Shown: piece by piece, positions 22,727 to 27,280 of the stretch
Position numbering within the stretch: the first letter of the stretch is position 1
Layout: the number at the start of each line of letters is the position of its first letter
Assembly: GCA_003597955.1 (NCBI GenBank)
Contig: QZJU01000019.1
Coordinates: 1-45,171, forward strand
Direction: 5' to 3'
Origin: Candidatus Parcubacteria bacterium
GTDB lineage: Bacteria; Patescibacteriota; Patescibacteriia; PEXW01
DNA length: 45,171 bases
Notes under the pieces: model-generated
What the model saw: the letters and a program-made list of their open reading frames with translations, nothing else
The model's database searches: none
Told to the model about the DNA's origin: nothing
Program-made: the position numbers and the translations under genes

Positions 22727-24439
22727 ATGAGAAGACTTCTCATTGCAGTCGCAGCTTGCGGACTGTTTTTTATTGTCAAGCCAGCTTTGGCCGCTAACGG
22801 CACTATCAGCGGCACTGTCACCCATGCCGTTGACGGCACACCAGTCGTTGGTATTTGGCTTTCAGCAACAAACATAAGCACCTCGGCAACAACATACGTT
22901 TATGGTACTGGCGCTGATGGTTCGTACAGTCTTTCGCTAGCCCCAGGCACATATGATGTTTCGACTTACACTTCCACATCCGAAGAGCCGGGCATGCAAT
23001 TTATCAGAAAAACTATAACTATTACTCTTGCTGACAGCGAGGTGCGGCCTGGTCAGAATTTTTCCTTAAACCGGCGGGGTTGGTTTATCGGCACTGTGTA
23101 TTCATCTGACGGGGTAACGCCCGTGGCCGGCGCTGCGATTACAGCTTCCAACGCCAGCGGGTATCTTTCTGGTTATGGTTCCACAATATCTACCTCAACG
23201 GGCTCTTATGTCCTGGCTCCAGCCCCCACGGATACCACGGCTTCCGCCACGGGCAGTTATAATTTCACTATTACCAAATCTGGCTACTTTGCCGCGCAGA
23301 TTACCGGAGTCGCGCTTAGCGCCAATGACGCTGCGGTGACGCGTAATGTCACGCTGACCCCGGCCAGCACGATTTCCGGAACAATAACGGATTCAAACGG
23401 CGCCGTGCTTGCCGATGCCACAGTCACGCTGACACGAACCGTCGGCTCGCAGACCGGATTAGCTTACGCGGCAGTCACGGACGTTTCGGGAAATTATTCA
23501 GTTTCTATTTTTGACAATTACTATTACAACGGAACCGCTATCGGTGAATATTCCATTTCAGTAAGCAAAAGCGGTTATGTCTCCCGATCGGGGACGGTTT
23601 CGATCGATGCTGACGCCTCGGCCGTGAGCGGGAAGAACTTTGCCATGAAACTCGGCAAGACTTACAGCGGCAGCGTTTTGGTAAAAAGCGACAATGCGGC
23701 CTTAGCCAGTGCGACTGTGAATCTTTATAAGCGGAACAAAGCCCGCAGTGAAGTGCCGGATTACATTGCCACGACAGACAGCAGCGGCGCCTTTTCCATC
23801 ACGGGCATTGCATCGGGAAACTACCGGGTGAGGGTCACGCGGAATAAATATGTGAACATCGTTACGGATTTGTTGAGCATAAAGAAAGACATTTCTGGTG
23901 CCGTATATAAGATGGAAGCCGGCGGCACGATTTCCGGACAGGTTTATACCGGCAACCGAGTCGGCGTAGACGGCGCCTCAATTGGCGTCTATGCTTTGAA
24001 AAATGGAAAGCAGGTGTCTTACACATCCGTGTTGGCAGATGATCAAGGCAATTATACCGTCAGCAGCCTGAAGGCCGGCACCTACCGTTTGAGAATTAGT
24101 TCCACCGACAATGTGACGCAATTAGCGAATGTGGCCGTTAAGGTCGGCAGGACATCAACGAAAAACATTAAAATGGTCGCCGCCGGTTCGATTTCCGGAT
24201 TTTTGACTGATCGGGAAACTGGTTTGCCAGTAGGCTATACGATCGTACGCGTCGTCGGAACGGCCATTACCGGCATTTCTGATATAAACGGTTATTATGT
24301 CATTGATGGCATTGCCCCGGGCAGGCGAAAGATCAGCGTAATGAGCTATTACTATGACATTACCAGCTGGAGCAATATCACAGTGAGGTCAGGTAAGATT
24401 ACTTCGGGTATTAACTTTGCTCTGAATCCAAAACAGTAG
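22727..24439 (+). CDS. Secreted carboxypeptidase-regulatory-like repeat protein
   Basis: 570 residues. Signal peptide with probable cleavage after KPALA, then about six beta-sandwich repeats of the carboxypeptidase regulatory-like type, each starting with a GTISGTV-like strand followed by PVxGAxVxA: near residues 25, 114, 213, 303, 395 and 488 (for example GTISGQVYTGNRVGVDGASI, GSISGFLTDRETGLPVGYTI). Repeats carry the G-x-Y-x-[IV]-x-x-[LI]-x-x-G-x-Y-x-[LV] ending. No C-terminal span or sorting signal is seen, so the protein is likely released or loosely attached. Such repeats usually mediate adhesion or binding. A direct repeat gtagtttatt occurs twice upstream. AAAGG before the ATG is a weak ribosome site. 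Confidence 0.85.
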   Translation: MRRLLIAVAACGLFFIVKPALAANGTISGTVTHAVDGTPVVGIWLSATNISTSATTYVYGTGADGSYSLSLAPGTYDVSTYTSTSEEPGMQFIRKTITITLADSEVRPGQNFSLNRRGWFIGTVYSSDGVTPVAGAAITASNASGYLSGYGSTISTSTGSYVLAPAPTDTTASATGSYNFTITKSGYFAAQITGVALSANDAAVTRNVTLTPASTISGTITDSNGAVLADATVTLTRTVGSQTGLAYAAVTDVSGNYSVSIFDNYYYNGTAIGEYSISVSKSGYVSRSGTVSIDADASAVSGKNFAMKLGKTYSGSVLVKSDNAALASATVNLYKRNKARSEVPDYIATTDSSGAFSITGIASGNYRVRVTRNKYVNIVTDLLSIKKDISGAVYKMEAGGTISGQVYTGNRVGVDGASIGVYALKNGKQVSYTSVLADDQGNYTVSSLKAGTYRLRISSTDNVTQLANVAVKVGRTSTKNIKMVAAGSISGFLTDRETGLPVGYTIVRVVGTAITGISDINGYYVIDGIAPGRRKISVMSYYYDITSWSNITVRSGKITSGINFALNPKQ

Positions 24440-25430: not shown

Positions 25431-25656
25431 ATATTGATTAAAGTTTTTAGTAAAAGTTTTGTGTCAAAAAGCAAGAATAAGTGTCTTAAATTAAGCAATC
25501 GAATTTTATCTCTTTTTTGGTCCCCGGCAAAATGAAGCCTGCAGTGAGAAACGAGCTGGCTCCGATTACTGGACGACGTTAGAAACGTGATTATAAGTGG
25601 AAAGTCCAACTTTTGCTTCCAAAAGTTGCATGTTTAATCACTGCAACACTAAACTA

Positions 25657-26023
25657 CTACACAAGCTCTAAGCCAACCGTTCGATATTTACAATCGACTG
25701 TAGCCTTGTAGCCAAACTTTGAAAGAAAACTGATGCCAGCTAATGGCACCCCTTCTTGTATTAATACTTGAATTAGATTAACCCTTCCTTCCATTGCAGC
25801 AAAAGCAATCGCAAAAGGCGCGTTAACCGTTTGCCCATTTGCAATTGTTACTGGCGTAACTCCACCAACTAGAAGTCCAAGTTCTTGCGCCATTTTAGGT
25901 GTCACCTGCAAGTCCCCTGTGAATCCAGTATCAAGTATGACAAGAGGCGTTTGCACTGCCCGCCCCCAGGCAATGACCGTTGGTATTTAAGGGTGTATTT
26001 TTGTCGAAAAAACCCCTAAGCAT
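25657..26023 (-). pseudogene. Retropepsin-like clan AA aspartic protease, frameshifted near its N-terminus
   Basis: The track shows only the in-frame part from a GTG at 25956. The catalytic motif ILDTGFTGDLQV, the strand pair AMEGRVNLIQVLIQEG and the second-half Gly in LAGISFLSKFGYKATVD fit single-domain clan AA proteases of bacteria. The missing N-terminus exists upstream in another frame: ATG at 26023 reads MLRGFFDKNTPL, and after dropping one A at about 25987 it continues IPTVIAWGRAVQTP into the protease. So the gene carries a single-base frameshift, real or a sequencing error in a short A run. Its ATG overlaps the stop of the 26016 gene by eight bases, so the pair is coupled. No other defect is seen. 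Confidence 0.7.
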
Positions 26024-26300
26024 TTCCGCTCAACCCAAATGACCTTGCCAAAGTTTCGGCGCTCTCAAAGCCAATCTTGACTACATAGAATACTTTATCG
26101 GGGTGATTTTTCCTTGCCAGCTCTAGTGCTTCAGCGCTTGTATTCCCAAGATACGTATTTTCAGAATCTATATCTATTGCTAAAAACTTCCCATTTTCCT
26201 TGGGTTCAAACTGCACTTTTACTTTTTGGTATATTGCCGCCCCTTTTTCGGCAATTTTTTGAATATCTGCCTTTTTTATCAATTCTTGGCTATCAGTCAT
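26016..26300 (-). CDS. Small partner protein of the retropepsin-like protease (DUF5678-like)
   Basis: 94 residues from the ATG at 26300; the longer track ORF reads into the recombinase remnant on the other strand and is not credible there. Sequence: an N-terminal helix IQKIAEKGAAIYQKVKVQFE, then ENGKFLAIDIDSENTYLGNT, AEALELARKNHPDKVFYVVK and IGFESAETLARS. This K-[FY]-[LV]-A-I-D...G-x-[TS]-x-x-E-A-x-x-x-A-x-x-x-[HP] pattern matches small bacterial proteins that precede clan AA aspartic protease genes, as here. The gene pair behaves like a mobile two-gene cassette, toxin-antitoxin-like in form; function unproven. TATATT twelve bases before the ATG suggests a near-leaderless transcript. Confidence 0.6.
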   Translation of the reverse strand: MTDSQELIKKADIQKIAEKGAAIYQKVKVQFEPKENGKFLAIDIDSENTYLGNTSAEALELARKNHPDKVFYVVKIGFESAETLARSFGLSGNA

Positions 26301-26420
26301 AGACAAATGGAATATACCATGGATTAGGGTTTTAACATACTGAAAATGCCGCCGGTATTGTTTGCCCAACGGCTGCTCCCACTCGTCGAAAAAGTGTCTT
26401 AATTTTGGGGGTCTTGACAG

Positions 26421-27269
26421 GTGCAGGCGCTCCTCGGCCGACCGTCCCAGGAACGCATGCAGAAGCACGAGTTCGCCTTCCGCGGTCCTATCCGGTGCGG
26501 GGAGTGCGGTGCCATGGTGACGGCGGAAGCGAAAAAGAAGCGGCTGGCGAATGGCACGGTGCAGCGCTACGTCTACTACCACTGCACGAAGCGCCGGAAC
26601 CCCACCTGCTCCCAGCGCTCCATTGAGGAAGGGACGGTGAAAGAGCAGGTTGCGACGCTGCTGGAGACGTTGGAAATCTTACCCGACTTCAAAGACTGGG
26701 GACTTGCTCGGCTGAAGGAGATGCACAAGCAGGAGGTGAAGGACCGGGAGCACATCTACGGCAGCCAGCGGCGCGACTACGAAGCGTGCGTGCAGCGGAT
26801 TGACGGCCTCGTCGAAATGCGTGCCAACAAGGAAATTGACGCGGTGACCTTCCAGGAGAAGCAAGCGAAGCTGCTGCACGAGAAGGCGCAGCTCCTCGCC
26901 CTGCTCAAGGATACAGACCGTCGCATTGAGAAGTGGCTGGAGGTAGCGGAAAAGGGCTTCAATTTCGCTGACCGGGCAGAGTACGCCTTTACCCACGGGA
27001 GCCTGGAAGCCAAGAAAGAGATATTTTCCCAGCTAGGTTCGAACTACGTGCTCAAGGACGGAAAACTGACGATTTCCCCGGACATTCTCCTCGTTGCCAT
27101 TAAAAAGTTGAGTAATGCCGTGCATCCCGCTATGTTCAAGTTAGAACCGCAGAAGCAGACCGTCGTTGCAGCACAAAACAGCGCTTCAATGCCGCTTCGT
27201 ACAGATTGGTTCCGGGACTTGGATTCGAACCAAGATATTCAGGTCCAGAACCTGAAGTCCTACCATTAG
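26421..27269 (+). pseudogene. Large serine recombinase, C-terminal remnant
   Basis: Only the C-terminal part of a large serine recombinase remains: a zinc beta-ribbon domain (GPIRCGECGAMVTAE, then YYHCTKRRNPTCSQRS) and the coiled-coil region (VQRIDGLVEMRANKEIDAVT; EKQAKLLHEKAQLLALLKDT) followed by AFTHGSLEAKKEIFSQLG. The N-terminal resolvase domain with the catalytic Ser is missing; an in-frame TGA lies just before 26421. GC content and codon use (gcg, ctg, acg) are far higher than in neighbours, pointing to transfer. The last 20 codons (WFRDLDSNQD...) are translated from the tRNA-Gln gene in reverse, so the element probably integrated there. Confidence 0.85.
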
Positions 27270-27280
27270 ACGATCCCGGA
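27207..27280 (-). tRNA. tRNA-Gln (anticodon CTG)
   Basis: Minus strand: acceptor TCCGGGA pairs with TCCCGGA, D arm GTCTAATGGTAGGAC, anticodon arm TCAGG-TTCTGGA-CCTGA with CTG at 34-36, T arm TTGGTTCGAATCCAAG, discriminator A, and CCA encoded. It starts four bases after the dnaX stop and is probably cotranscribed with dnaX. It overlaps the end of the recombinase remnant. Confidence 0.93.

Follow-up and report, generated by a model that had tools for sequence, protein, structure and literature searches.

In the mycobacteriophages BPs and Brujita, which display integration-dependent immunity, integration truncates the gene that contains attP and thereby switches its function. Self-disrupting recombinases have been stated to be exclusive to archaea (PMC8371274), and serine recombinases that insert at tRNA genes have been called rare, the examples being phiRSM1 and the mycobacterial AICEs (PMC3218068), or unknown (PMC4383910). 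For the serine integrase of LI, the zinc-ribbon motif is shifted by 5 bp toward the centre of the site in attB (PMC3783163).

The locus described here lies on a stretch of 45,171 nucleotides (the window) from a contig of a Candidatus Parcubacteria bacterium. It probably represents a decayed integrative element of a large Patescibacteria family, which its large serine recombinase (LSR) placed at the 3′ end of tRNA-Gln(CTG), with attP in the reading frame of the recombinase, the native tail of the enzyme stranded at attR and an internal deletion that came later. The window itself holds only this decayed member. The attachment sites, their spacing, the in-frame tail and the recurrence of the arrangement across the family have been established computationally. 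A literature search, with subscription journals mostly outside its reach, returned no published account of a tRNA-targeting LSR family in Patescibacteria.

The recombinase remnant and the ends of the element at tRNA-Gln(CTG)

The remnant corresponds to approximately the 3′ third of an LSR gene (Table 1). The ORF at 26421–27269 on the forward strand matches the recombinase zinc ribbon (PF13408, E 3.7e-10) and aligns with full-length LSRs of 500–570 residues from residue ~263 onward, starting one residue before an invariant Gln. The zinc ribbon and the coiled coil by which an LSR is recognised are both present, followed by the C-terminal region, and the catalytic and recombinase domains are missing. 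The Resolvase-type catalytic domain (PF00239), present in the relatives, was not found in the window, and a search of the whole genome for the missing domain, as had been proposed, located it only in three other LSRs on contigs C2 and C16, with no orphan N-terminal half. The final 21 codons of the ORF (27207–27269) run antisense to tRNA-Gln(CTG), and the frame closes inside the tRNA at 27269. The GC content of 26420–27206 is 58.1%, well above the 45–46% of the flanking host DNA. The original prediction, made from the letters of the DNA, had described a zinc-ribbon and coiled-coil remnant of elevated GC with its last codons antisense to tRNA-Gln, and agrees with these results; intact frames occur solely in other elements (~43% identity or less), and none of the relatives carries the same truncated gene, so that neither of the two observations that would have spoken against the prediction was made.

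Table 1 Features of the decayed element in the window.
Feature	Position	Strand	Basis
Distal attachment site attR: core TGGCTCC, 14 nt, zinc-ribbon motif GTTAGAAa	25557..25590	+	PWM
Predicted orphan codons of the native C-terminal recombinase tail at attR, WLRLLDDVRNVIISGKSNFCFQKLHV with stop	25557..25637	+	In frame once LSR and attR are joined; tail motif
Retropepsin-like aspartic protease gene, putative element cargo	25657..25956	-	ORF; DTG motif; homologues
Small partner gene of the protease cassette	26016..26300	-	ORF; protease and partner segment kept as a unit elsewhere
Internal junction, cassette side / LSR at the residue-263 equivalent	26415..26420	.	Stop, start of homology, GC step
3′ fragment of the LSR gene	26420..27269	+	PF13408; alignment to intact LSRs
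Internal motif 1, GGTTCGAAC, coding for G-S-N	27036..27044	+	Codon constraint across relatives; 171 nt before the tRNA 3′ end
Internal motif 2, AGTTAGAAC, coding for the K-L-E-P region	27139..27147	+	Codon constraint across relatives; 68 nt before the tRNA 3′ end
attL core TGGTTCC, reading the tRNA-Gln end GGAACCA (3′ strand of the acceptor with discriminator and CCA) in antisense	27207..27213	+	Comparison with attR
tRNA-Gln(CTG), predicted integration target	27207..27280	-	ARAGORN

The distal end of the element was located with an attR position weight matrix (PWM) built from 16 arms of other elements, the window being left out. The site at 25557 has the highest score on either strand of the window (14.2; next 11.3), ranks first among the sites to the left of the LSR and lies on the strand predicted for it, and its combined score of 22.2 was not equalled in 12 Mb of random dinucleotide-Markov sequence. 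The core, TGGCTCC, differs from the 3′ end of tRNA-Gln, TGGTTCC, only in the discriminator base, and the arm motif has a single mismatch, in its last position. Elsewhere in the genome, the pattern TGGNTCC-N12-16-GTTNGAAC has no further exact match. At the opposite end, the antisense T-arm ATTCGAAC at 27223 matches the attB type of the zinc-ribbon motif, 9 nt from the core as against 14 nt in attP. The locus therefore has the layout of a tRNA-borne island, with an intact tRNA-Gln at one end and a displaced 3′ fragment at the other, a fragment of just 7 nt that is identified by the arm motif adjoining it. The decayed element is thereby predicted to span 25557 to ~27213, or ~1.65 kb, at the 3′ end of tRNA-Gln(CTG).

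The scar at tRNA-Gln that had been foreseen is borne out by intact relatives with an LSR-into-tRNA junction and by the distal site at 25557, where the second copy of the tRNA 3′ end that had been anticipated as an att site is matched by the 7-nt core with its arm. The idea that the recombinase gene abuts att needs amending: an att site does lie at the gene end, but attP is apparently inside the reading frame, and codons antisense to the tRNA would replace a native tail. An empty tRNA-Gln site could not be read in the few relatives available, a family of four genomes in which the tRNA-Gln(CTG) neighbourhood was not recovered; the incomplete genome of the sister species is without dnaX and tRNA-Gln(CTG).

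Two further observations concern the window. The attR site has the discriminator G73 (25560), as does the tRNA-Gln(TTG) of the source genome, whereas tRNA-Gln(CTG) now has A73 (27210), so that integration seems to have changed the discriminator base of tRNA-Gln(CTG). Elsewhere, positions 22727–24439 encode a secreted-looking protein of 570 residues with carboxypeptidase regulatory-like repeats (PF13620, six stretches).

Recombinase junctions, attachment sites and motifs across relatives

A class-wide search found a relative of the window LSR fragment in 204 of 381 genomes. Nearly all of the 28 best full-length relatives (L020–L047) end inside a tRNA gene in the antisense direction. At 80 loci from named genomes, the best LSR overlaps a tRNA at its 3′ end in 51 cases and has its stop inside the tRNA in 48; several of the remaining loci either have tRNA-derived tails, with a group I intron interrupting the tRNA (RF00028 in L128), or are cut off by the end of the contig. 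After removal of duplicates, 82 distinct junctions, mostly from Patescibacteria, show an LSR ORF ending in or just past an antisense tRNA, with 75 stops inside the tRNA and 23 isoacceptors represented, Asn, Gln and His being the commonest. The overlap is far beyond chance, since the relatives repeat it again and again. The source genome itself has an intact LSR on C2 that ends inside tRNA-Leu(CAG) and one on C16 that ends inside tRNA-Lys(TTT), and the sister species likewise has an LSR ending inside tRNA-Lys(TTT). LSR pairs of at least 80% identity share the tRNA isotype in 16 of 16 cases, and pairs of 60–80% identity in 27 of 55 (chance 17%), which indicates that targets switch as the LSRs diverge.

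With the window protein as query, no close relative was found in viral contigs; a family profile yielded 26 viral loci, mostly distant, and plasmid and phage collections contained distant LSRs only, at about 27% identity or less. Outside Patescibacteria, distant LSRs on a Legionella adelaidensis plasmid (L205), a Neochlamydia plasmid (L206) and a gut phage contig (L207) have tails resembling antisense tRNA, including WLPGQDLNL, LDSNQRRP and EEDSNFHD, and are without the two internal motifs described below. In a second LSR class (L138, L148, L168), the motif spacing is 101/110 in place of 103/88, and the gene end lacks a tRNA. Group I introns sometimes split the targeted tRNAs, as at L128 (4679–4975, RF00028), and the tails of L101, L130, L090 and L172 contain antisense sequence similar to that locus. 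A LOOT RNA (RF03000) is found at L092 (12680–12797) and L131 (2440–2561), a few kb from LSRs with an attP tail; placing LSRs of this kind in 23S rRNA or tmRNA genes found no support in Rfam.

Some LSRs that are not joined to a tRNA share an arm after the same core, TGGCTCC-N14-GTTMGAAC. When the core and arm pattern was sought upstream of the tRNA-joined LSRs, the predicted strand had it at 14 of 81 loci and the control strand at none, and with the PWM 20 of the 81 loci, the window and the C2 element of the source genome included, scored above the maximum of all 81 controls, with elements of ~5–16 kb; attR was not found for most loci, where the contig or the examined flank was often too short. 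The gap between core and arm is 14 nt wherever the core starts at the annotated CCA end of the tRNA. In the C2 element of the source genome (C2:~90252–95223), attR lies 4.97 kb from the LSR that ends in tRNA-Leu(CAG). At L089, three attR-like sites stand in tandem upstream of the LSR, at distances of ~6.1, 6.8 and 8.7 kb; near-identical host-like hairpins precede two of the sites, a pattern that suggests serial insertions at one tRNA-His.

The position of the crossover is narrowed by the loci L020 and L092, whose LSR proteins are 91% identical and whose DNA is identical through TGGCTCC, after which tRNA-Asn follows in L020 and the attP arm in L092. The predicted crossover core, bounded by this natural attL/attP pair, is the 3′ end of the tRNA. 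The zinc-ribbon motif follows the core by 9 nt in the tRNA, as antisense T-arm, and by 14 nt in attP and attR, so that, as in an LSR att pair, its distance from the core is 5 bp shorter in attB than in attP; the motif spacing is 103/83 in tRNA-joined LSRs and 103/87–88 in attP-tailed ones. Since the motif shift is 5 bp, as in the LI integrase, the arrangement fits a serine integrase that would use the tRNA T-arm as a half-site with crossover in the acceptor stem. No inverted motif can be recognised in the left half-site of attP; the GGTTMGAACC within the gene was considered for this role and rejected, being in the wrong orientation and, at 69 nt, too far away.

Two motifs inside the gene, starting 171 and 68–69 nt before the tRNA end and 103 nt apart, match the attP and T-arm motif in the same orientation and are constrained in codon choice. 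The LGSN codons read GGTTCGAAC, with Gly as GGT in 54/61 (23% elsewhere in the genes), Ser as TCG in 50/52 (14% elsewhere) and Asn as AAC in 44/45 (46% elsewhere). The DNA for RLEP is GGTTMGAACC, with Arg as AGG or CGG in 41/41 (23% elsewhere), Phe at this site as TTC in 16/16 and Glu as GAA in 66/67 (61% elsewhere). The control protein motif YYxC is without such codon bias. We infer that the internal motifs are additional zinc-ribbon binding sites. The LSR codons before the tRNA also contain an antisense terminator, a hairpin followed by a T-run, that beats synonymous shuffles at 31 of the 82 junctions (p ≤ 0.05; ~4 expected), especially where the CCA is encoded; the terminator in the window is weak (p 0.05). 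The element supplies both CCA and discriminator to the tRNA.

The intact elements carry varied cargo that includes restriction-modification, Pycsar, MmeI, EcoRI methylase, AbiEii, SocA-like and other defence genes; DUF5659 occurs in 7 of the 116 proteins scanned, and the cargo of the C2 element includes a DnaD-like helicase loader. Small GIY-YIG nuclease genes were observed at the 5′ end of LSR-targeted tRNAs at L074 and L081 (both tRNA-Asn), L077 (tRNA-Met) and, decayed, L078 (tRNA-Trp), and likewise at L209 in the sister species (tRNA-Gln TTG). At the first four loci the nuclease gene abuts the intact tRNA, and a 16–24 nt copy of the 5′ part of the tRNA followed by a hairpin is found on the far side; judged by this arrangement, the unit is a homing-like one inserted into tRNA genes. 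The LSR side was also searched for simple direct repeats (at least 14 nt) of the tRNA 3′ end as att sites; it has none, and the repeats detected on the tRNA 5′ side are those of the GIY-YIG cassettes.

The predicted native tail and alternative readings of the scar

The LSRs of 18 elements were joined in silico to their own attR arms at the core, with only these two ends used. The join keeps the frame and yields a predicted native tail of ~25 residues, "W..VVDDVRT...YIYIPN", examples being WLSIVDDVRTAMKEDFYIPNTKNVLITN in L077, WYRVVDDVGTAIRQFDGYIHIPQLESVRQS in L088 and, in the window, WLRLLDDVRNVIISGKSNFCFQKLHV, which matches the motif in part only and has no YIYIP. The phase of the tail is consistent wherever the CCA anchor is clear. 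In the integrated state its place is taken by tRNA-antisense codons, W-LRG-xDSNPRP. In the AlphaFold model of the L092 protein, the usual LSR layout with the coiled coil is seen and the native tail has low confidence (pLDDT below 60). As a conserved tail continues in frame after the join, and as natural attP-tailed LSRs show the same location of the site, attP appears to lie within the LSR gene, and integration would exchange the C-terminus of the enzyme.

It is improbable that these are ordinary tRNA-targeted elements in which the LSR gene merely lies beside att, with incidental read-through into the tRNA and the attR arm and no selected tail. One frame of the tRNA antisense strand is indeed free of early stops, and GTTMGAAC, the attP motif, by itself encodes V-R-T regardless of any need for a tail. 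Conservation, however, extends past this DNA motif: 11 of the 18 elements have the YIYIPN-like motif in frame, whereas none of them has it in either of the other frames, and its frequency in random segments is 0.5%; it is the frame and random controls that carry the argument, the pattern having been written after the tails were seen. The mean tail length of 20.6 codons in frame, compared with 14.6 and 4.1 in the other frames, also argues for a selected tail. The remaining alternatives concern the break within the window, where a TGA in the LSR frame at 26415–26417 is followed by LSR homology from ~26420 and the GC content steps from 41.8 to 58.1% at ~26418. The break, expected near 26400–26420, is real in the given contig; the accompanying claim that it brought the protease cassette next to the remnant did not hold, since with attR at 25557 and attL at the tRNA the cassette (25657–26300) is placed inside the element and the break becomes internal.

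That the cassette instead entered the scar afterwards as an independent insertion, or is host DNA lying between the LSR fragment and a decayed attR, with the loss of the LSR a separate event, is unlikely but deserves the most attention among the alternatives. The cassette segment, at 41.8% GC, differs from the LSR fragment, its protease has homologues of 59–73% identity in scattered genomes of the class, and protease and partner are conserved as a unit in other genomes with no LSR beside them within the flank examined; the cassette was also considered as the usual cargo of LSR elements, a proposal dropped because the other elements examined do not have it. It nevertheless sits exactly between attR and attL, and the cargo of intact elements is likewise varied. 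An assembly chimera at ~26418 would be in keeping with a MAG-like contig, a sharp GC step and the frequent ending of LSR genes at contig edges in related genomes, yet there is little probability of it, as attR is found 0.86 kb to the left of the break with the strand and the core expected of it, so that both sides of the break should belong to one tRNA-Gln element. Least probable is that the truncated LSR has been kept as a working protein, such as a DNA-binding regulator of the att sites: its 260 codons are open, the zinc ribbon and coiled coil are complete and both internal DNA motifs are kept, but no relative shares the truncation, and other truncated copies are in many cases at contig edges.

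Proposed mechanism and comparison with known systems

For the preferred reading, a decayed element that was inserted at tRNA-Gln(CTG), the following course is proposed. In the predicted free circle, the LSR ORF would run in frame through the core, antisense to the last ~7 nt of the tRNA, into the ~25-residue tail W..[VL][VL]DDVRT.... The integrase would recombine the core with the tRNA 3′ end, with the T-arm (TTCGAA) as a zinc-ribbon half-site 5 bp closer than that in attP. The tRNA would remain intact after integration because the element provides the CCA and, in many members, an antisense terminator within the recombinase codons; the LSR would then end in tRNA-antisense codons and its native tail would be stranded at attR. 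In the window copy, an internal deletion, presumably a single one, would later have removed the catalytic part of the LSR and left the protease cassette with the two att ends.

The exchange of the tail may alter the activity or directionality of the enzyme. A more far-reaching proposal, which we hold only tentatively, is that a widespread bacterial family has evolved a self-switching tRNA-targeted serine integrase module, in which a selected tail is swapped and sets directionality or locks the element in, with an array of zinc-ribbon-like sites (-171, -69, +15/+20). If true, the array would be an accessory architecture of a kind not known for serine integrases, enzymes prized as tools for their short and simple att sites. 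The family would be the first shown to have attP in its own gene, a universal tRNA T-arm half-site and a C-terminus that changes on integration, and would offer a testable mechanism of directionality, a bacterial counterpart of the archaeal suicidal integrases and numerous new integrases whose targets, at the 3′ ends of tRNAs, can be predicted. It would also explain the movement of defence and restriction cargo among Patescibacteria.

The Patescibacteria LSRs resemble the A118/LI, Bxb1 and phiC31 serine integrases in domain order and, in intact relatives, in the catalytic Ser motif, with profile matches in the PDB to the A118 integrase (4kis) and the SPbeta integrase, and they share the 5-bp shift of the zinc-ribbon motif between attP and attB with the LI integrase (PMC3783163). 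Unlike in those enzymes, attP appears to lie inside the ORF, a tRNA T-arm serves as the likely half-site and the gene contains two extra motifs; solved structures offer nothing equivalent to the C-terminal region past profile position ~478. Insertion of a serine recombinase at a tRNA gene is shared with phiRSM1 (tRNA-Ser) and the mycobacterial AICEs (tRNA-Leu), a comparison on tRNA targeting alone, but whereas those cases are reported as rare, tRNA insertion prevails in this class of Patescibacteria. In BPs and Brujita, in contrast to the present family, the truncated gene is that of the repressor, and the integrase is a tyrosine recombinase. The closest parallel in layout is offered by the archaeal suicidal tyrosine integrases of SSV1, pTN3 and pT26-2, in which the attachment site also lies inside the integrase gene and integration disrupts the gene; the enzyme of Patescibacteria is, however, a bacterial serine recombinase and not an archaeal tyrosine recombinase, and here the C-terminal tail alone appears to be exchanged.
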